NCBI RefSeq assembly: GCF_963675165.1
Contig: NC_087379.1
Coordinates: 3,845,442-3,909,441, forward strand
Direction: 5' to 3'
DNA length: 64,000 bases
Origin: Halichondria panicea
Taxonomy: Eukaryota > Porifera > Demospongiae > Suberitida > Halichondriidae
Under the pieces are notes generated by a model that saw only the letters and a list, made by a program, of their open reading frames with translations, did no database searches and was not told where the DNA came from. This document shows, one piece after another, positions 528 through 61,100 of this stretch. A program made the position numbers and the translations under genes. How positions within the stretch are numbered: position 1 is the stretch's first letter; each line of letters begins with the position of its first letter.

Positions 528-3500
528 CTACTTAGCAAGCAAGTTTAAGTCTATCTCGAAGAACACATAAGGATGGTAGTCTTGCTGCCCAAAAGAGAGT
601 CCTTGCATGTCAAGCATCTAAAAAATGTTATAATTATTAAGAACATGCACACCTTTCTGATTAATACCTCAGCCTCTGACGCGATGTAATTTGAGTCAAG
701 ATGACCATATAGACCGTTAAGAATTTCTGTCAATTTCTTTTGCGATTTTCTATGTGGCTTCATTATCACTGCTTGAAAATTCACAGGCAAGCTGTACCTA
801 TACATGGGAACGAATCAATAATACCAAAAAAACATATAAACACAGAAAATGTACCTCAAAACAGATTCAGTAAATACACGCAGTGCTTTGAGATGAACCC
901 AAGCTGAAAACACCTGGTTGAAATTAACTTTCAGCCAGTTCATCAGTGGTCCCTGCATTTACAATAACACAACATTTAATTTGATGCATGCACGAGGCAC
1001 TTATAATTATTACACCAGGGAGCGCGACTTTATTCCATAATAATGTATATACCCGTATAGCGCAAAATTTTCAAGGGGCTTAATTTTCGCGGATTTCGTG
1101 GGGTTAGCAATCTTACACGAAAATTAAGTCCACGAAAATTGTTCAGAATTATCTGCTATAACGATTTAAAGGCGTGGCTTCCGGTAAGCAGTCATTCCGC
1201 GAACATTGTGCAACGAAATGCTTTTGGAGGCCAATCCATGAAATATAAGTACCTCAAAAATTTCGTGCTATACGGTATTAACATTGTAGGTCCAGTCAGG
1301 CACACACACATGCATCAAGCGTTGCATTACAACTCACAAACTGCTTCTTCAGTTGAAGCTCAAGCTTCCCCTTTTCATCTCGCTCCTTTTGCACGGTCTT
1401 AGCATCGAAGTCAAACTCACGAACGATAAATCTGTTAAAGATTGACAAGTGAATAGTGTCGTTTTCACACACCAAAACTCAACTTTTTCTCTCGAGCATG
1501 ATGCTTGTATTCATCGGCTACTTTTCTAAACACAGTGACAGTGTATAGCCCATATTCAGAATCGTCCGCTACCTTTTTGGTTGACCTAGGTACTACCATC
1601 TGTGTAATTTTCTCATAAGAGTTTTCCCATTCCTTATAGAGAGACCTGGAGACGATGTGACAAATAAACTGCAGTACATTCACTCCAGCGTATCAAAAGT
1701 ACGCCGGGTTTCTATGACTCCACAGCAGAGAAGGCATGTACAGAATTATGGAACATCTATCAACTCCGAAGTGCATGTGTACGTCATAGAGAAAAAAATA
1801 AAGATGCTACATGTACAGTCAGGGATATATTGGCTCAGTGGTGACATAAGGGCAAGGCACTACTGGTACACATCACTCCAACTAGTGGGCAACTACTAGC
1901 TGGCTGTGGAATGCACCAGTCGCATGAAATACATTTTTTGCTTACCAACAAGTAACTTCAACGGTGCTATAGTATTACAAAAGGGACCGTTTCAGGATAT
2001 TGGGTAACTTCAGCCATATACTGTGCTGAACTGTGCCATATGGCATCAATAAAAAGCTGTTTGCATTTGCAAAACGCATCGTTCCTGTTTAAACGCACAA
2101 TGAACGCATTGTATTATGCAAAAACATTTTCATGGATGCAGGAAAATTACTGAGTAAGCAGATTTGAGAACGACTGGGGAAACGGTGCATTTTTCCTCAG
2201 TCGTTCTCGATCTTGCAACAGCCCCAAGACTAAGTTGCCTTCCTCTGTGACCTGGAATTACCGTTTTTGAAGACCATCATCTTTTCTCCAGTGCTGTATC
2301 AGTATGTCTGACTGTCTGCATACACTGTAATAGCTAGCTAGCTGCTCATTGTATGACGGTAAGAGTAGATAAGGTGTTTAACTCCTATAGTAAACGTGAA
2401 ACCGCTAAATTGCGTCATCACTGTCGTCACTATTCAACTAATTAGGCCTGTTGAGTAAACTGTGGTCTGTGGTTCGTAGCACTGCCTGTAGAACTGCGCT
2501 AGCCTCCTTCACAAGGCCTCAAAAAGGAGGCCTGCTACTACTGACTGCAATTATTGGATAATTTGCCCGTAATGTTTCCCATTAAACTGAAATTTTTCCA
2601 GAAAAATATCCTGAATAATATAATATACAAAGAATTACAAATGTTCAAGTGCCTCTACCGCATCAGCACCAGCAGTGCTTTCATTATTATGCCTCGGTGC
2701 ACATGCGCAAGCGAGATATACGGTAGTGTGTTTGTGTGTGTATCTGTGTGTCAGTCTGTCTGTGCGTCTGTGTAGAGTGCTACAGCTGCTCAAGGATCAA
2801 TGAAGTGTAACTATAGGCTTCTAGTCATGATTTTAATTCGTGGATTTGCAAAATAATGCTTCGTTCTCGAGTTATGCCTAGTTTAGCTTACTTGGAATGC
2901 CATTGCAGCCTTTTCAGAAGAGTACGTAAACAACTTGTCCATAGAGTGTTGCTACTCTACTTAGTAGTTATCTCTGCACTAGAACGCTGGCTATTGGTAG
3001 CTGTAAGAGTGAGAATAGAGCTGCCAGGCTCTGCTGATGCAGCCATTAATTTTAGACCAACTCACTTTCTTTAAACTGTACAGAGGGTTTTTTATCTCAA
3101 AAGTTCCAGTTAGTAGATCCCTGCTACATGTACCTGCCTCTGAACAAGGCCGGCTTTCAATACATGTAGATGCCCTCGGGACATCGTAGCAGAGCGGTCT
3201 GGGGTTATCGTACAAGAAGCTCAATGTACTCTTGGGCGTATCTGACACCACTTGGAACTTTTAGCATGATCGCTTTAACAACCAGCATGGTCAATCATTA
3301 CCCACTATTAATTTGAGTTTCCCTGGATTCTGGCCTGAAATAATGCAAGAATTATGTTCATCTGATATAACGTGTATATAGTAAATTTATGTTATGTAGC
3401 TTTGGCCTCCACCGAGGCATCATAAATATAAGATTTCATTGATCCATTATATTTAGTCTACTGTAGTGCAATAACTGATTTGTTGCGTCGGAGAAATATG

Positions 3501-6500
3501 CCATTAATAAAGATTTCATTGATCTATTTATTAATGACATCATTGCATATTTCTCCTACGCAACAAATCAGTTATTGCACTACAGTAGACTTTTGCTCTG
3601 AGTTATGCATGGCCACCACGATATACCTATACCGCCCATTTGGTTTGGCACGGATTGCTAGCTAGATGTTTACTGCACAAAACTCACCCTGAACTGCGGC
3701 CACTCGCTATTTCGTATACTGGCCAGTACTGGCTGCCCCAACCTAGGTTTTCGTGATTATGACGGATATCACGTTTGGGGTGTGGTTTGGCAGATTACAC
3801 TTAAATAGAGAGCAAAACGATTCATTATCCTCAAGACAGAACCGCAAAATTAGATTCGAGGTAAGGTCGTTTTTAGCCGCGGCTATTTTTTGAAATACAG
3901 CCACCTCCCTATTCCAGCCAAGTGACAGAGTCTGCTGTTACTATCACTCGTGCAATATGCCAGATATTGTGCTCAGTACTTCTGAAATGGCTGCAATGGC
4001 ATTCCAAGTAGGCATAACTCGAGAACAAAGCATTATTTTGCAAATCCACGAAGCTTAATTTTAATACAGTGTTTCTCATCCCTCTTCTCGAATCTACGCT
4101 AATACGAAGTGATACTGCATATGTACATGTAGCTTCATTGCCTACACTGAGGCATCAGCACCCGCAGTGTAATCATTAACACGGCTGTCATTTTCTGACT
4201 CACGAATTTAACGTACACATCAGCATATTAATGTCCAGTCCTATCTACTTTTCACAGGACTGCATGGACATACACATTTTTCGGTTTCGTTTCAATAACA
4301 GTAAGAAGCATATAGAAGTTCAAGAAGACGTGAATGACATTGTAACGGATTAGAGTTATGCTCTCGCCGGATTCCTTGTTATATTTCCCCCTAGCAACTT
4401 TTTACATTGCAAATGTTTTCTAGTCGATATACTCAACTATCTATGTAGACACTCTCAAATAACCTGCTGTTTTACTGATTGAAGAGGGGCACTAACTACT
4501 GCTGCTACATCTGGCTGTGCACTACAAATTGTATTTCACCCACTAGTCAAATTGTATTTCACTCACTAGTCACTGCTACTCCAGATTATTTTAACGTACT
4601 AGTTACCATGGGTTGGAGGACATAGAAAAGAAATCATGACCGGAAGGGCGATTGTCAATGCTCTAATCCCCTCCGGTCTTCTTATAATTGAACTCACTTG
4701 GGGACAACAACAATAAGAGTCTGCAGGTACTCTGAATCCAAAACAAAATCTTCTTTCTTTACAAGATCAACTAGAGATCGAGTCATCAAGTTCCCTCTAA
4801 AGAAAACCACAACTAATTAGTGATACCAGCTATAATTATGAGCTTACGTATTTTTTCTTTCAATTATTTGAAGATTCTGACGTAGTGCATTGTAACTCTG
4901 TGACTTGGTCTTCAGGTCTGTGTCCACTTGTGAGACCAGCTATGCAGATGAATAAATGTAATTACTGATGCCTTGACATAACGTACATGTACGTACACTC
5001 AAAAAGTTATGTCAAATTAATCGGTACGAGAATAGAGATAATAGCTGGCTGGGCATATTTTATGTCCAATATATGGTAGAGGTCGTTTATAATTATTGCT
5101 AATCGCATGTTGTCCTATTATACTGTGATCATGCCTCGGTGCGCATGCGCAAGCGAGGTATACGGTAGTGTGTGCGTGTGTATGTGTGTGTGTCTGTGTG
5201 TGTATGTGTGTGTGCGTGTGTAGACTGCTACAGCTGCTCAAGGATGAATCAAGTGCAAGTAAGAGTTTCTATAGGCTTCTAGTCATGTTTACTTGGATTT
5301 TAATTCGTGGATTTGCAAAATAATGCTTCGTTCTCGAGTTATGCCTAGTTTTGCTTACTTGGAATGCCATTGCAGCCTTTTCAGAAGAGCACGTAGCCAA
5401 ACTTGTTTACCGAGTGTTGCTACTCTACTTAGTAGTTAGCTCTGCACTAGAACGCTAGCTATTGGTAGCTAGCTGCAAGAGTGAGAAGAGAGCTGCAAGG
5501 CTCTGCTAATGCAGCCATTAATTTTAGAATTATCATGTGTATAAGTAGCTTTATGTTATGTAGCTTTGCCATTGGCATCTCCACCGAGGCATCAGCACCT
5601 GCGGTGCTTTCATTCGTACAGTGATTAATCGTGTATCAATAATTGCACGTCGTCAAGGCAGTAATTGCACCATAGATTGAGTAGAGAGGGATTGGAAACG
5701 AGATACCCTCGAAGTACCATCCGTGTTTCCCCGCGGTTTTAATCGAGGCTTACTTCCAACGTGGGGTCTAAACATGAATAATTCATGAGAATTGTTTTTG
5801 CTGTCTGTAAAAAGTCCACGAGCAGTTCTGCTGCTAAACATCAACTTCATCAAATACTTGTGGCTATTTGGGACACAGCATACTACTTAGTGACACAACC
5901 TTAGCTATATCATAGTAGCTAAACTAACACAAGCAAGAAAAATAGCTCTGTGTTAGCTACTTCACGACAATCAAGATTGTATTTTTTTCGTTTCCAAATG
6001 ATACTCACTATCAGGGGGCATTTGTTTAAGTGTTAGAGGGGTCTTTGAGACGCATGCATAGACTATGATTAGACTCAATAAGTTTCCCGGTAAACTTACC
6101 CGGGGTAGAAAGCGAAACACGGATTGTTTCTGAGCTCTACATAGACTTCATTGTAAAACATCACGTGAACCACTTCCGTTGCCAATCCCCTTCTACTCTA
6201 TCTATGATTGCACGTCGTCATTAATGACGTGCAATTACTGCCTTGACGACCGCACTTTCGAATAACGGCCGCGGCTAATATTTTTACTGAAACTGCAGCT
6301 AAAAATGTCCTTAAAACTGCATCACAAACGATTAACAATCAATAGTATGGCTACTCGTGCAATAAGGGATTAATATAGCACTCATAACAAGGTTAACAGC
6401 AATTAGTATCCTTGCCATTGCTTGTTACTCATGCTATTAATCCCATATTGCACTCTTAGCCATACTATTAATTATACTAATCATACTACCAGAGTAGAAC

Positions 6501-15600: not shown

Positions 15601-18600
15601 CCCTCCTTGGTGCATGTACGTTTCTACTGATATTATATGTATATGTACAGATCAGGGATATTCTGCACCCATGTTCAGTTTCTTTTTGGGTCCTTCTCAA
15701 ATCCATTCTTGACTGCTTGGGCTCCTTTCTGCTGCTGCCAGTACGTATATGGCGCTAGTTTGATTCCTGGTATATACATGTAGCGAGCCATCATTAATTT
15801 TATATATACATGCATGTATGTACTTATAATTATGCTTCATAATTTGTGCACTTTTAGAATAATTAATGTTAGGTACATGTACATGTATAGCTATAAACAC
15901 AAACGTTCGGTATATCTTTTATGTAACTTAATTTGTTTCTTCAGTAGGGAGCAGGCTGCTGATCGAACTCTGCCTTGAGTATCTAATGCGACCCGTTGCT
16001 CTTAAAGAGGAGGGTCTATTTAGAGTGTCTGGTGATTCTGCTGTTATGAAGTCTCTCCATGCTGATTTCATGTCAGGAAGAGCCACAGGAGAGTTTCTAA
16101 AGTGAGTCACAATAGTGGAAACCATGGAAGGGTATAACTGGAGCCCAAGAACGTGTTGTTATAATAATTTTTACTGATACCTGTCCGCCTTGAACCAGCA
16201 GCAAATGTAGCTGGCCGATGCACTCTATACAGTAGAAACATGCATCAATTTACGTGACCTTGTGACGTCCTCGCACAGGTTTTCACCACAATTGTTAACT
16301 GATTTTGCATGACGCCCTTTACAAAATTGTCAGTAGCACTTAATGATCGATATACGTAAGTAATCAGTTTGTCCTTATATGAAAAGATCGAAGGCTGAAA
16401 TTTCTTGTACATGCATGTATAGCCATGCAGGAATCGTTTACGGTTGTTTATTGTTATGAATATGAATGTTCATGCCCATATACAATGCATACTCTAGCCT
16501 CCTGCAGAGGCCTCTTGAGAAGAAGGCCTGCTACTGAACAGAAAAAATATCCTGAATCGATATGTACATGCAGACAAAGATTACAATTCATAATATTGAG
16601 TTGATACACAGAGCTGTATATAGCTATAGCTAAAATGTATATAGCTAGCTAGCGACAGAGTTGTAGGTGTGTAGCTCTTTTCTTTCTGGTGGATCAAGTC
16701 TACATGTAGACTTTCACCAAGGTTACTGTTACGTGTAGATGAGCTTGGCCCGTCCATCTAGGCTAGTTCACTCTGTTCGGATGATGGTCATCCACACTGT
16801 TTTCAAGCTGCGGTATACGCATGCGCAAGCGAGGTATACTGTAGTGTGTGTGCGTGTGTGTCTGTCTAGGTTGCTACAGCTGCTCAGGGATCAATGAACA
16901 ACAGTAGACTCTTGCTATTTCGGCTCTCTGAAGTATGGTCACCTCGATATACCGGCCATTTGGCTTGGCACGGAATGCTAGCTATAATTATGTTTACTGC
17001 ACAAAACTCACTCTGAAGTACGGCTACTCACTATTCCGTATACGAGCCAGTGCTATAAGGATACTATTTTTGGCTGTAAGATCTCTATAAACAAGATCTC
17101 TTCGAGTCGCCCTCCATTAAGTCTTCAGGCAGTCAAATACTGGTCAGAAAGACGACCTGGAAGCTATTCAGTCAACAAAACTTGACGCCAAAATCTTCAG
17201 TTTTTTCCAGCTGATCTTAGACCACTTCATTGGATAACAAGACACATAAATAAACTCCGAATTATTATTGTAGCTAGCATTGTTTCATTATTCTCTTTTC
17301 ATTAAAATCATTGCAAGTTACAAAAATAATGTTAGTGAATAAATCTTATGAATTATTCATGACCGATTAACCTTACCGTGATTGTGTTTGATCCACCTTC
17401 AATTATTTAGGGCTGCACTGATGGATCAGCGTGACCCTAATACTATCAGTGGATTACTAAAGCTTCATCTCAGGGAACACCCATTCTTGTGTCCGGCTAG
17501 TGTGTCTGCATTGGATAAGGTCCTGGAAGAAGCAAATAGAGTAAGTTATTATTATACTGTGACTCTTTCAGTTACTATACGTGTGAGTGCGGCACGCATG
17601 CTGCATATGGAATGCCAAAACCGCCTAGCAATAAAGAGTGTAGTACCGCATGCAAAGGATACGTGCCATAGGAGATCTGATTCCTCATTACGTCTGACTT
17701 GCGTCTTTCACGCAGGAAACAACATGTATGTAAATTACGCGCATTAGGCCCACATCAAACTGTTCAGCAACTTGTATAAATGAAAGCACCGCGGGTGCTG
17801 ATGCCTCAGTGGAGGTGTTAAAGCTAAAGCTACTAGCCGTTATAGCAATAGCCTATACACACATTATCATCGGATGCATATAAATTTTGCAGCATGCAGG
17901 CAGAATCCAGAATCACAGAGAGTGGGTAATGATCGACCATGATTGTTGTTAAAAACGATTGATGCCAAAAGTCCAAGTCTTAAATCAATGGCTGCATCAG
18001 CAGAGCCTTGCAGCTCTCTTCTCACTCTTGCAGCTACCAATAGCTAGCGTTCTAGTGTAGAGCTAACTACTAAACTAACTACTAAGAGAGCTCACAAGAC
18101 TCACTCTATTGGAGAGGAAGTTGAGATAAAAGACTATTCGATCTGGCTATAGCAGCTTCTCTTCTGGCCACAGTAATAGCATAATTATTATTCATAATGC
18201 ATGTACACACGTGTCTTCACTTAATGACATCCGGAATTTGGATGGAGTCTGGTCCCGCTCTATTCATGAGCAATTAACCTTAACGTTGCTATACCACCTA
18301 CATAGTGTATTGGGATACTTCGTACAGTCATGTACATCGATACTAAAATACTAAAACAGCCGTGTATAGATGTACCATAGAAACTGAATCATTAGCGCTT
18401 ACTCAGACTATAAGCGTATCTTTATTTTAAACGCAAGCTCAACTGCAGGTTTTTTGTACTCGAATTGAAGCGCTTTTCCGATCATGCGAAGGATATTAGT
18501 GAAAATGTTGATTGATTCAGCTAACTTTGTTTATCTATTTTTATGAGCTAGCTAGCTTGTACAGTGCATGGTAGCTACATGCTGAGAGAATGTGAGGTCC

Positions 18601-54247: not shown

Positions 54248-54325
54248 GCCTCGATCCCAGGCCGAGTTTTCGCTTTTATAATGTAGGCAACCGTTATAAA
54301 AGCGAAAACTCGGCCTGGGATTAAG
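54248..54325. repeat. Perfect hairpin with R4-type ends, 27-bp arms
   Basis: Arms 'tcccaggccgagttttcgct' tttataa are perfectly inverted around a 12-base loop. The outer sequence 'tagcctcgatccc' is the R4 terminus, so this looks like an R4 end pair with the interior lost. Same type as 58858-58902. Confidence 0.85.
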
Positions 54326-54597
54326 CTAGCTCATGACAGCTATGGTATAGTGTTTCACCCACGCATCCAAACCTTGTATGAATATCATTATAATGTACAT
54401 TCCTGTGGCATATAATCACGTGTATGGCCCTTGTGGTCTTGTAGTATTGTACACAACACAAGCAACACACAAAACTATCACAAGCTGGAAGATACTATGC
54501 TATAGCAGCAGCTACTGCACTGTAGTACTAGGTAAGTAGGTATTATTTGATTACCATGTTCAGTGATAGGTGAATTATGATGATTTTATGATGATGA

Positions 54598-57320
54598 TTA
54601 TGATGATGTGTTGGTTGAGGTAGGCTCCCTGATACCACCATTACGGAATCTGGGGCAAGCTAACTCTGACAAAAGTGCAGTATAATAAAAGTTCCTTAAT
54701 TTTGATAGTTGTAGTTCCCACCACCTATTGTCTCTGTTGATACGCTCGATGTGAATGTCTTTGTTTGTTCGTAGTACGAAATCACACCATTGTGTGTCAG
54801 TACAGTACATTTGACATTGTATTTGATAATAGTAGTCATCTTCGTTTCAGTTGTATGTTATTTGTCTTCTTATCAACTTGCAGGCAGAAACTTGACTTCG
54901 TACATGCTTCTGTTAGCATTTTATCCTTAGCAGAAAAAGGATTTTTAATCTCAACTAGTCCTTGAGGATGGGATGTTTCACTTGGGTTGTTAACTAAACC
55001 AGCCAGCCAATTGTTGTGCTCTGAAATGAACAAGCCACATGTCTTAACTTCTAAATCTGGATGACCATTCCTTCGTTGGTAAGCAATATATTGATGTGTT
55101 GTTTGTTCTTCCTTTTCTGAGCCATAACGTGTAGCTTCGTTGCCTCTAAATGTGCTGTACAGTAGATCTTTGACTTTATTACTCTTTTTTGTCGTCTCTT
55201 TCATTTTCGCTATTCCTCCCACTCTTGATGCTGTAATTCTCTTCCTTCTCTCATACTTCCACTCATCATTCTCTGCCTGTTGTCTTGTTTTCTTCTCAAT
55301 TGTTTGTGCTTCTTCGCAAGTGACGACCACTTTTGTCTGGTAAAAGCTTGTTTTCAACTCTTCAAGTCTCTGCGAGGAAATGTCTTCAGTTATTTCATCC
55401 GGAGAAACTCCTTCGTCATGCCTAGTGTAAGCTTTGCGAGCTGCAATTGAGTTATCTATTTTAGTGTACTTGCTTTTTCGTCTTTGTTCTTTTGCTTCAT
55501 TTGTTCCTTTTCTCTTTCTGTCATTAGAGACTGTCTTAGCAGAACGTTCTGCTGCGTCAGAGAATACTTTATTTGGCATCGATCCTGCCATCTGTTCCCA
55601 GGTCTGTGGTCCCCATTTTCTTCCAAGGTTCTGCCTAAGCCCTGCTCCCATGCATCTGTGTTCCCAAGAGCCACTCTGTGATCGATTGATGACCTTCCCA
55701 CGACCTTCCCACCGTCAAATTTAGCACGAATATGCATCCAACATTCTGCCAGATTTGTTGTCTCGTTTCCTATCAGCTGAGATGCTTTGCTCACAAGTCG
55801 ATTTAGTTGTACCTGAATGTCATGGTAAAGTCGTGGGTCCACGTTTGTTGGTGTGTGTCCACCTTGTCGAGCTTCCAATCGTACCATCGGATCGTCATCA
55901 ACAGTTTCACTCCACAAAGCCTCTTGTGTAGTAACAATACCTGTGATTAATATCAATACATATTTACACTTGCCTCAATTAACGTTATGTTTTTATTCTG
56001 TAGGTCTGAACTCACCATCAAGCACGTCATCATTGTCTTCGCTGTTTTCACTGGAAGTTGACGGTTGAGATGTGGACTGAGTGAGCGAGGGAGATATTGT
56101 TGCGGATGAGAGCTTGTCTTACAAAAGTCAGGGCTGCAGTCATCGTGAAAGCCAAAACAATGACGTGGTCCATTCTGCAAGTCACGTTTGAGTGATATCA
56201 GGGCCTTCTTCGGGTCGCTCCTCATCCTGATTGCAGCTCGAGCAGCAGAAACCAGTCGCTTTCTTGTTTTCAGCGTAAGTCCACCAGTTCCCTTGTAGGA
56301 TGGGTTATCCTGAACAAGCCTCTCAAGAGCACCTCGGTAACACTTGCAAGCGTGATTCGCACATTCCAGCTTCTTGATGGCATGTCCCCACCCTGGAACA
56401 TTCTGTATGAGCGTAGGATGCACAGAACCATCTCCGTCTCCTATGAAGTGTATGTACCGCACACCATGGACCTGCTCAGCTTCAAGGAACCCTTCCAGGA
56501 TAATGTCTGTCTCCATTTCAGAAGATGACTTGTTCCAGTTGCGGAAACAAGCATGCTTGTCAGGCGAGATGTTTCGTGCACAGGCATGGCAGTACTTATT
56601 TCGCACACCTATGTAGAGAAGCTTGCCGGTCTCCTTGCCAATAATGATGGCAACACCTGAGTTTGCATTGTAGGAGTGCTTGTGTGACCGCTTGCTCCAT
56701 CCTCCGTCTACAATAACTGTGATAGCTGGAACGCCTTCATTATAGCTCCCCATTTCCTCTGCTATTCTTTTCTCCTCCCGTCCTGCTTTGGCCATTGACT
56801 CGATTAAATTTTGCTTCCAAATCTCTTCGATATTTCTCTCAGTTGAGATGAAGCTCACTTTCGTCATGGTGGGAATTCCCAGAACACTCATTTGCTCCTC
56901 CAGCTGAGAATGACCACCCCGTAGCCATCTGCCCCCACACCGCAGCAAGATTGCACTCCCACCTAAACACAGAGAGTTTTGTTTGTAAACGATTTGTGTG
57001 CATGTTTACCTGGAATAGGCTCGAGGACCCTTAACTTTCTTTGATGTGTCCAGGTTGAAGTACATTTCGCAATTGTTACATTCGGCCTTCAAGATTGAAG
57101 CCAGTCCATCTCTACTCTCTCCACACAAAGAAATGGAGCCGTTACAGCTACTCGAGTGTTGTGTCAGCCTGTCAGTATACTGTTGAAGTTTATCTAAATT
57201 CACAATTCTGTTTCCTTCTAGACATTTGTTTTTTGTTCCACTGTTTTTGTCAGCACCGGTACCGGTCATGGAGGTATGAATCCTCTTCGCCTTTGCTGGC
57301 CACTTCTTCACATACACATG
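54598..57320 (-). pseudogene. Mutator-like transposase fused to YqaJ-type exonuclease, decayed
   Basis: Read on the minus strand: segment 57320-57010, a GT-AG intron to 56955, then to 56016, an intron to 55940, then on to a stop at 54598. The N-terminal half is a Mutator-like transposase domain: a Cys pair region, TVIVDGGWSKRSHKHSYNA, NKYCHACAR, HFIGDGDGSVH, KKLECANHACKCYRG, and TTNLAECWMHIRAKFDGG. The C-terminal ~250 residues match YqaJ/RecE-type nucleases: ERRKRITASRVG, GLVEIKNPF, then in another frame WCDFVLRTNKDIHIERI and ELACPRFR. Breaks: an exact 11-bp tandem duplication (55691-55701 and 55702-55712) shifts the frame; another shift near 54843; a probable one between 56040 and 56110. The usual S-P-D-G before LV of the nuclease is absent, so a catalytic Asp seems lost. 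The 5' end is cut off by the R2 repeat at 57336. Confidence 0.85.
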
Positions 57321-57335
57321 CCTGTAACTATTTTT

Positions 57336-58185
57336 ATGCCTCGAGGCGTAGCCGCATGAGGGATACGGTAAAGCTGACCGTGTGTGTCTGTCTGTCTGTC
57401 TGTGTGTGTATTCCAGCTATAACTGCTCAACGGTTGCAATGCGACGAAAACTAACAGCTTCTATAGGCTTCTAGCCAAGTTCTCTTGGATTTTGATTCGT
57501 GGATTAGCAAACTAAAGCTTCTTTCTCGAGTTATGGCTAGTTTAACTCACATTGAAGGCTGTTGCAGTCTCTTCAGAATCTTTCATAGCGTCCATCTGTC
57601 CGCACAAACTTTCTATTCAACATATGAGTTAGCCTTGCACTAAAGCGCTAGCTTTTTGTTAGCTACAATACTCAGAAAATATCTGTTAAAACAGCTAGCT
57701 AGCTAGCAGTAGCCATTTGTGAAATTGATCTCTTTGGACACACCCTTTAATTATTCCTGTGGATGTAATGCGCATGCGCGCTCAATCCCCACGTGTGAGA
57801 AATAATATCCAAGATCCAGATCCAGATCCTCCTGGCAGAATCATCTTTGTCTTGAAGGCCTGGTAAGCCACAAAACACTACCATATAACAATATACTAAT
57901 TAGATAACAATATGCATGTACACAGGTCTTTTCTTCTTAGATATTATATACACTGAACTACAGATCCTGGAAGAATCAATTTTCTTCTTTCTTGAGGTCC
58001 TAGTAAGCCACATAATACAACAATAGATGCATGTAAATAAGTCTTTTCTTCTCAGTGACTTTATATAGATAAGCTAACTTTAATATAAAATTCATTATAG
58101 AAACTAATATAACACTCTAATACTTTTCAGCGAAAGCAAAACCATGGCGAGAGGCATTAGCACAGCGCCAGCTTGAACACTAGTT
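57336..58185 (+). repeat. R2 repeat, copy B, uninterrupted
   Basis: It starts 'atgcctcgaggcgtagccgc' and ends 'cttgaacactagtt', and is nearly identical to the parts of copy A (24029-28242) around the Ginger insertion. Internal landmarks shared with R1: 'cttctataggcttctagcca', 'tctcgagttatggctag' and 'ctgttgcagtctcttcagaa'. It contains 'gatccagatccagatcctcc'. It abuts the broken transposase gene on its left. Confidence 0.85.
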
Positions 58186-61100
58186 GATTTTGTTTTCCTT
58201 ACTTCCCATCTCATAGATCTCATAGAAAAGCTCTCTTTTGTATGCATCTTATGTTTTCAATGTACCCGCTCGAAAAACCTGTAATTGCGTGGGTGTCTAT
58301 TGTTTGCGGTACAGGCATTACCAGCTTAGAGCTGCAACTTACTTTGTTGTCAAAATTTAGACTGGGTAGACTGAGAAATCTTGAACTATAGCTTCTATCT
58401 ATTTATATGAAGGAAGGGGCAGGGCAACACAAAGAGAAATGTTGAAAATTGTTAAGCCAGCCGTAGCTAGCCTTCTGTTTATAAAGAAATCGAACGTAGT
58501 TTTCGATACTTACCACCTACTCGTGGCTATAACTCTTCCGTACGAACGTTTACTGCTCGGATCTCTTTGTGTCGCCCTCTGAAAGGTATCTATCTACATA
58601 TATTTGTCAAGAAACCTTGCTTGAAGTGCCTATTGTTCACATAAAATGACGACAAAAATTGTGTTTATACTTGTAGACTAGATATCCTCTTGTCTCATTC
58701 ATGTATCTTCATAATCATGGAATTCTTACACACAACAATAGCAATAGAATTGATAATCATACAAAACACGTTCTGTAGACTTCATTGATCCTGCAAAAAG
58801 AGAAAAGCTGCCAAAAAAACTCATGAATATTCATGAGCAATCACTATACCGTAACCTAGCCTCGAGACCAGGCCGATTACGTAGGCCTGGATTCGAGGCT
58901 AGAGTACAAAACCACAACACATGCACTTGCTCTGGTGAGGTTTTGCTTGCTGTAAAACAGTACTAGTTGGCAACTTAGCGGTGAGCACTGACCTAGCTAA
59001 GTTATGACAGACGTGCTCCATTGTACTTTCAAATTACAATGTCATGATGAGCTTGTAGCTGCCTGCGCGTGTATATATGGTAGACTAATGGTGCATGTGG
59101 AGAGGACCCTAGGCTGCATATGTATAGCTCTAAACAATAACTTCATTACTGCTATAGTGCAACCACAAAGATCAGTCGACCAAACTTTTCAGAAGGGGCC
59201 ATATTTTTCAGTCCCCATGGACTGAAATTTTCATTGAAAAATTGGTCCCCAGACTATTATTTCTTTTTTCAGTGACAGGCCTACCTCAGGGTCAACTATT
59301 GAAGGCTTTTCCTATGAACTGAAAAGTCAGTGTGATATATAGGTGTCAACTAAGACCTACAACAGCTAGCTCACATACTATAAGTATAGTTGCACAAAAG
59401 CACTCAACCAATAAGGTATACACCTGGTGACATGATTCAGTTTTTGAAGGGCTTGTGTATAGTCTACTGAAGAGTCTTTTGGTATACCATCAGATGATTC
59501 ACCTCAAGCTACAATACCATCCTCGTAATCGTCACTATATCTCCTTATATTCTGATGGGAATAAAACTGTTAGAAGCTAACAGTTCCAAACAATACACTA
59601 TAGAACAGGCGAACAAATTAAGCATTAACTGCTTTTCCCCTGAAAACGCGCAATTTTTGCACCTCAAGAAAATTTCTTTATAATTATGGTATGTATACGG
59701 TATACCCAAGAAATTAGAGAGCACCTGTTCTCATATCAACATGTCACACTTTATGCTTTGCACAACTGTACTATTACTATACTGTGTACAGTAGTCTATG
59801 GAGTACACGAAACATTTATCTGTCAATGCATAATTATGTGTCCCTATAGATTATAGTTATTACATGGCTATCATAATAATTAACTACTTTGTTGCCTTGA
59901 AGCCATTTGCTACATGACAGAAGTGAGTGTATTAATTCATATATACTCCTGTCCCACAAATAACGAGAATGAGTCTCTAGTGATTTGACAGTTTTTGTGG
60001 TTTAGGTTTAATTATACAGAACTGACCATGCACAGTGCAATACTGCATTTCCTTTGATATCAGATCAAAAGGCAGCAATATACACTTTACGCAGAGAGAA
60101 TAATTAAGAGAGAGAATAGCTCCATAAAACATTTATATCCATGAATTATATGTATAGTACGTTATGGCCCACAAATATTTCCGAACGTTCATTCCCTCAA
60201 AATAATATACACGGCCGGTAAGAAGCCGTATAGCGGGTTATAATTATTGTGGAAATTTTTCTTATTTAGAGCATCCGAAAATTATAACTATTGTGTGCAA
60301 TAGGTTCTATGTCACTATTCTGAGCTGTACGATCGATCAAATTACTACCAATTAAAATCAGTTCGATCTATAATTATGTATATACCTGTTTTTTGGGGGA
60401 TCGTTTGGCTCCTCGGGTGGAGCAGGGTCACCATTTCTGCTGTTATAGTTTCTGGTTCAATACAAGTTGGCAGCTGATTCCAAAAGTTATCTCACTGATC
60501 TACATGTGTATGTCATTATGTCGCCTCCAAAGTGCACCTGACTTCGTTTGAACTACGGCGGTCCCTTTCTTTCAACAGCTACTCCTGGGACTAGTTAATT
60601 GGATGTTAAAAATTAAGGTCCTATTGCTGAAGTGACTAGCGCTGTCTTTCCCACTACCCTCCACTCTTTTCTAAGTTACACACTAGCTGTTTTGGAGGTG
60701 TCTATGGGATTTAGAAACCCAAAGGCACTGCATGTAAGCTATGATGTAAGTACCCTTAAACGTAGTGAGGGTACTACAAGTGCCTGAGGGCTTCTAAATC
60801 CTATGGAGACTGACAAATCCTCTACTCTAGCTCCCATTCTTCCCCACTACCCCCCGGCCTCCTCGATCCCCTCTTCTTCATCAATGCAGTACACCATGCA
60901 GTCTTTCCCCCAATTTGTTTACCTTTCTTCCCCACTTTCTCGCACTCTTTTCCCAATACCTACCCCCCCCCCCCACCCTATCCCCTTTTATTCCAATATC
61001 CCAATATTCCTCACACTCCCTCACGGGCCCATTCGTTCTGGTACTGACCACCTCCTTGGGCTTAATTGTGTGGTTTAATGAATTAATAGGCTCTGAATTG

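Follow-up and report, generated by a model that had tools for sequence, protein, structure and literature searches.

Kolobok transposons are recognized by a 4-bp TTAA target-site duplication and by termini of the form 5'-RR...YY-3'. In the description of Kojima and Bao (2022, PMC9587614), KolobokP, KolobokD, and KolobokH carry an accessory nuclease or helicase (a His-Me finger endonuclease, a DEDDh exonuclease, or a RecQ helicase), whereas KolobokE combines these Kolobok features, a CxxH motif, and a CCHC finger with a lambda-exonuclease-like nuclease. ISL2EU elements (Harbinger-like; PMC4482050, PMC9179366) are likewise DDE transposons with a YqaJ nuclease, but their YqaJ is a separate gene and their transposase is of the DDE_Tnp_4 type, with helix-turn-helix (HTH) and THAP domains. 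Members of the lambda exonuclease/LHK-Exo/YqaJ family are stand-alone phage or prophage proteins. Here we analyze a 64,000-nucleotide stretch of the genome of the sponge Halichondria panicea (contig NC_087379.1, forward-strand positions 3,845,442 to 3,909,441; the window), in which a nuclease that shares, at the level of its transposon family, the predicted fold and D...ExK motif of those proteins is fused behind a DDE transposase. The element is very probably a KolobokE-type DNA transposon, preserved here as a decayed copy. A preliminary description of the window had put forward such a fusion as its best candidate for an undescribed system; Pfam matches, relatives, and a predicted fold bear out the fusion, which is real, well supported, and already named, its lineage being very probably the KolobokE of Kojima and Bao (2022, PMC9587614).

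The fusion and its relatives

In the window, the Pfam domain PF20700 ("Mutator") is followed by a YqaJ nuclease, both on the minus strand, in the order previously described and far above chance (table 1). The profile search thus upheld the nuclease match. The genome that was scanned (131 Mb, 39 contigs) holds at least 26 PF20700 places and 15 YqaJ places, and the seven copies of the fused element studied here fall into three subfamilies. The first consists of the window copy and L036 (90% identity), the latter of which stops soon after the first nuclease motif. The second consists of L055 and L080, which are 96% identical over 1503 bp; L080 is truncated on its 5' side. In the third, L056 has the 5' terminus and the transposase with no nuclease match within the 9 kb examined, L081 has the end of the transposase and the nuclease and shares 97% identity with L056 across 306 bp, and L082 retains the 5' terminus and the end of the nuclease only.

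In L055, a single 618-codon open frame links the DDE core, by way of a linker, to the first YqaJ motif. Because this frame is unbroken, the DDE and nuclease domains belong to one gene, the only one recognized in the family, and homologs do not always have the two domains in separate genes, as the fusion recurs in all three subfamilies. The claim of a single transposase–nuclease gene therefore holds for the family, and for the window copy it does not, since that copy is not one intact gene. A tree that includes four phage sequences as outgroups, and no viruses of eukaryotes, groups the fused YqaJs in a single clade (support 99/99). Support is weak (60/47) for the branch around ISL2EU, so that the fused form may have arisen either within that group or next to it.

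Termini, target site, and empty site

Upstream of the gene, three copies have the same terminus, GGTTACGGTA...TTGCTCATGAATA. Genome-wide, this 5'-side terminus occurs 84 + 71 times at two or fewer mismatches and not once in a reversed control. TTAA stands directly before it in 47 of 54 exact copies among the matches listed, and at ten fetched loci the same end is preceded by TTAA in nine cases and by ATAA in one. A second end was found at six of these loci, all six with TTAA on both sides and nothing longer shared between the flanks. The pattern used to find the second end itself contained TTAA, with six errors allowed, so the four loci without one could hide exceptions. The ends of the family read GG...CC.

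An empty site is available for L055, which is inserted in a member of a high-copy family of miniature inverted-repeat transposable elements (MITEs). Its flanks agree with nine fetched copies of that MITE as far as one shared point, and in eight of the nine the insertion site is the unoccupied CTTAAATAG. The sequence TACAGTAGACTCTCG was considered as a terminus of L055 and rejected: it belongs to this separate MITE, presumably pogo-like, which has 443 + 464 exact sites and is split by the element, and it was this recognition that yielded the empty site. The ninth MITE copy, L065 (G000:C1:453860-455190), holds in the same TTAA another kind of element, 0.8 kb long and flanked by TTAA, whose ends are CCCTTTCCCGGC...GCCGGGAAAGGG (CCC...GGG). 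Within the window, a MITE terminus, CAGTAGACTCTCG, is present at 16902 and 29130, one of them with a mismatch (shuffles expect a mean of 0.35).

Three miniatures of about 615 bp (L070, L071, and L072) bear the termini of the fused family. Their mutual identity of 97–98% suggests that they were mobilized fairly recently, although the coding copies examined are broken.

Probable affiliation with KolobokE

The DDE core of the window copy contains VDGGW, GDGD, CANH (the CxxH motif), a CCHC finger, and a second finger (alignment A1). The series VDGGW, GDGD, and CANH, followed by TTNLAE, is found in both the window copy and L055, with catalytic roles assigned by position. The CCHC finger (YCHACARNISPDKHAC in the window) lies downstream of the first D, as in KolobokE, at equal spacing in L055 and L013 (alignment A1). 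On the nuclease side, the window copy keeps ExK, and the residues that include the PDG aspartate of L055, L080, and L081 are missing from it (alignment A2). Across the four copies that cover the site, Asp is present in three (not the window copy) and ExK in three (not L080), and L055 and L081 retain both. The full D-ExK set, which the preliminary description named as a point to check, is therefore found in these two homologs and is incomplete in the window copy (no Asp) and in L080 (no Lys).

We file the family as KolobokE-type because the TTAA duplication with GG...CC (RR...YY) ends, the CxxH motif, the CCHC finger, and the downstream lambda-exonuclease-like nuclease are all present at the family level. 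Several observations weigh against this assignment. None of the seven fused copies examined is intact. In L055, the left tip and the TTAA beside it are gone; L080 retains this end, with TTAA next to it. The window copy is flanked by TGAC and TAGC and its own duplication is therefore not preserved, and the L080 sequence that was folded is without the Lys of ExK. Finally, the comparison with KolobokE, which showed no difference, is with the published description (PMC9587614) and not at the level of Repbase sequences or a tree.

Mutator/MuDR elements (Mutator-like elements, MULEs) have target-site duplications of 8–10 bp. The Mutator-like identity given in the preliminary description corresponds only to the Pfam name of PF20700, and the TTAA duplication of the family argues against it: all six two-ended miniatures share TTAA only and nothing longer. 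A MULE is thus very improbable, even though a C/DxxH motif is common to Kolobok and MuDR according to Kojima and Bao (PMC9587614). In the same paper's account, piggyBac duplicates TTAA and has termini other than RR...YY; membership there was rejected on the GG...CC ends. ISL2EU membership was rejected because DDE and YqaJ share one frame in L055 and the 14 THAP places all lie away from the seven fused copies. The same genome does contain ISL2EU-type elements in which YqaJ has its own gene next to a transposase of the DDE_Tnp_4/HTH/THAP type (L001, L002, L005, L007, and L008 on G000 C1, C3, C2, C13, and C3), but that the window merely places a transposase beside another transposon's YqaJ gene, by chance or local rearrangement, is hardly credible and was rejected, given a domain order common to three near-saturated subfamilies, the unbroken L055 frame, and the 99/99 clade.

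A KolobokE-type assignment places proteins annotated by Pfam as "Mutator" plus "YqaJ" in a transposon lineage that has a name, and supplies ends, a target site, and an empty site for it, so that such annotations can be read correctly. The literature search, which left most subscription journals outside its reach, returned nothing linking YqaJ with Kolobok by name, nor anything relevant linking it with Mutator-like elements. Elsewhere in the genome, L017, L019, and L021 (G000 C4, C2, and C11) have open frames of 939–1210 aa with a weak PF20700 match; in the parts scanned, L019 is without a YqaJ match and L021 without any Pfam match. They may represent further Kolobok-like lineages that are better preserved than the fused family.

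Constraint and fold of the nuclease

Selection was estimated by the Nei-Gojobori method on ungapped in-frame blocks between subfamilies (nine comparisons, with synonymous divergence, dS, computable in one only). Proportions of synonymous differences (pS) range from 0.75 to 0.91 and of nonsynonymous differences (pN) from 0.12 to 0.30. The pN/pS ratio is 0.17–0.20 in four comparisons of the DDE domain, 0.33 in the linker, and 0.16–0.27 and 0.38 in the two YqaJ blocks. Both domains were long under purifying selection in the past. A predicted model of the L080 nuclease has a lambda-exonuclease fold, and nucleases of the fused family are about 25–30% identical to phage proteins. The nuclease is likely to be active in living relatives.

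More distant searches returned little. A phmmer search of PDB gave no hits for the window nuclease; with the transposase it returned a single hit, weak and unrelated (E 0.027). Single-protein pattern scans, which can detect close relatives only, turned up nothing related to the transposase core in viral_contigs or in genome_contigs, and scans with a four-row YqaJ alignment found nothing in genome_contigs and a single viral locus, 27% identical.

Possible roles of the nuclease

The transposase would cut the element out and paste it into TTAA. The fused exonuclease may then digest the 5' strands of the DNA ends that the transposase makes, most likely at the donor site. Resection of donor ends, also suggested in the preliminary description, would favor repair by homologous copying with the sister or homolog as template, which would refill the donor and raise copy number. 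We tentatively place the main role of the nuclease here, at somewhat less than even odds. If the idea is true, some transposases bring their own repair-pathway switch.

The chief rival, which we consider possible but doubtful, keeps the KolobokE-type element and has the nuclease act on transposition intermediates (excised ends, target gaps, or by-products) instead of the donor break. A comparable role, degradation of intermediates from the 3' end, has been proposed for the DEDDh exonuclease of KolobokD (Kojima and Bao, PMC9587614), and fusion to the transposase would put the nuclease at the synaptic complex. A processive 5'-3' exonuclease would, on the other hand, endanger the element's own ends unless they are protected. 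We regard it as improbable that the domain is a noncatalytic module for DNA binding or oligomerization. Lambda exonuclease forms a toroidal trimer, according to the title of PDB entry 1avq, and the losses of Asp from the window copy and Lys from L080 agree with a noncatalytic function, but each residue set persists in three of four copies, with both in L055 and L081, and the nuclease is about as constrained as the DDE blocks.

The lambda-exonuclease-like clade is apparently common to two unrelated transposon superfamilies. That both DDE superfamilies recruited the same eukaryotic clade, ISL2EU as a stand-alone gene and KolobokE as a fused domain, is conceivable though rather unlikely; if true, 5'-3' resection would be a generally selected helper of cut-and-paste transposition, directing excision into copy-gaining homologous repair.

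Structure of the window copy

The extent first assigned to the gene, 54598–57320, is too short for the element, whose termini lie at 54338 and 58856. Without its foreign repeat, the window element measures about 3.95 kb, compared with 3961 bp for L055 (positions 2096–6056 of that locus). Its 54338 end differs by six mismatches and one insertion from the right end of miniatures of the L070–L072 type, is the sole match in 14 kb on both strands (none in four simple shuffles), and reads AG. A variant, GGTATAGTG, is present at both ends (54338 and 58856).

Table 1. Features of the KolobokE-type element in the window
Feature	Position	Strand	Evidence
Whole decayed element, 4519 bp including a 574-bp foreign repeat	54338-58856	gene on -	Fuzzy match of termini to ends of other copies
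Diverged terminus, 3' side of gene, AGCTATGGTATAGTG...CACCCACGC	54338-54370	+	Match to right ends of miniatures
End of nuclease (YYYQIQCQMY...GGIREP), another frame	54598-54846	-	76% identity over 71 aa to L055
Linker and YqaJ/lambda-exonuclease-like nuclease	54836-55714	-	PF09588 YqaJ E 2.3e-7; PF01771 Viral_alk_exo E 3e-7
Piece with TTNLAECWMH, taken as catalytic Glu region	55456-55974	-	Same segment in L055 and L081
DDE transposase core	55953-57005	-	Pfam PF20700 E 1.4e-64
Opening coding piece, matching PF20700 profile positions 1-70	57006-57329	-	Pfam E 5.1e-8
Foreign interspersed repeat inside element	57322-57895	.	At least 38 other near-full-length places, 95–97% identity (40 of 2901 candidates scored)
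Terminus, 5' side of gene, GGTTACGGTATAGTGATTGCTCATGAATATTC	58825-58856	-	Recurrent genome-wide terminus

The coding sequence is split between frames, the breaks falling near 56915, 55700, and 54845; the one near 55700 is an 11-base near-exact tandem duplication. The frame of the DDE core reads through intron-like ends, the putative introns being recognized by GT...AG in the sequence. Neither the TTNLAECWMH piece nor the last piece of the nuclease has a Pfam match of its own. With its frame breaks, foreign repeat, and loss of residues that include the predicted catalytic Asp, the window copy is dead, a fossil. Just outside the 54338 end lies a perfect 28-nt inverted repeat with a 12-nt loop (54254–54321), and a similar foldback begins at the 58856 end (58858–58903).
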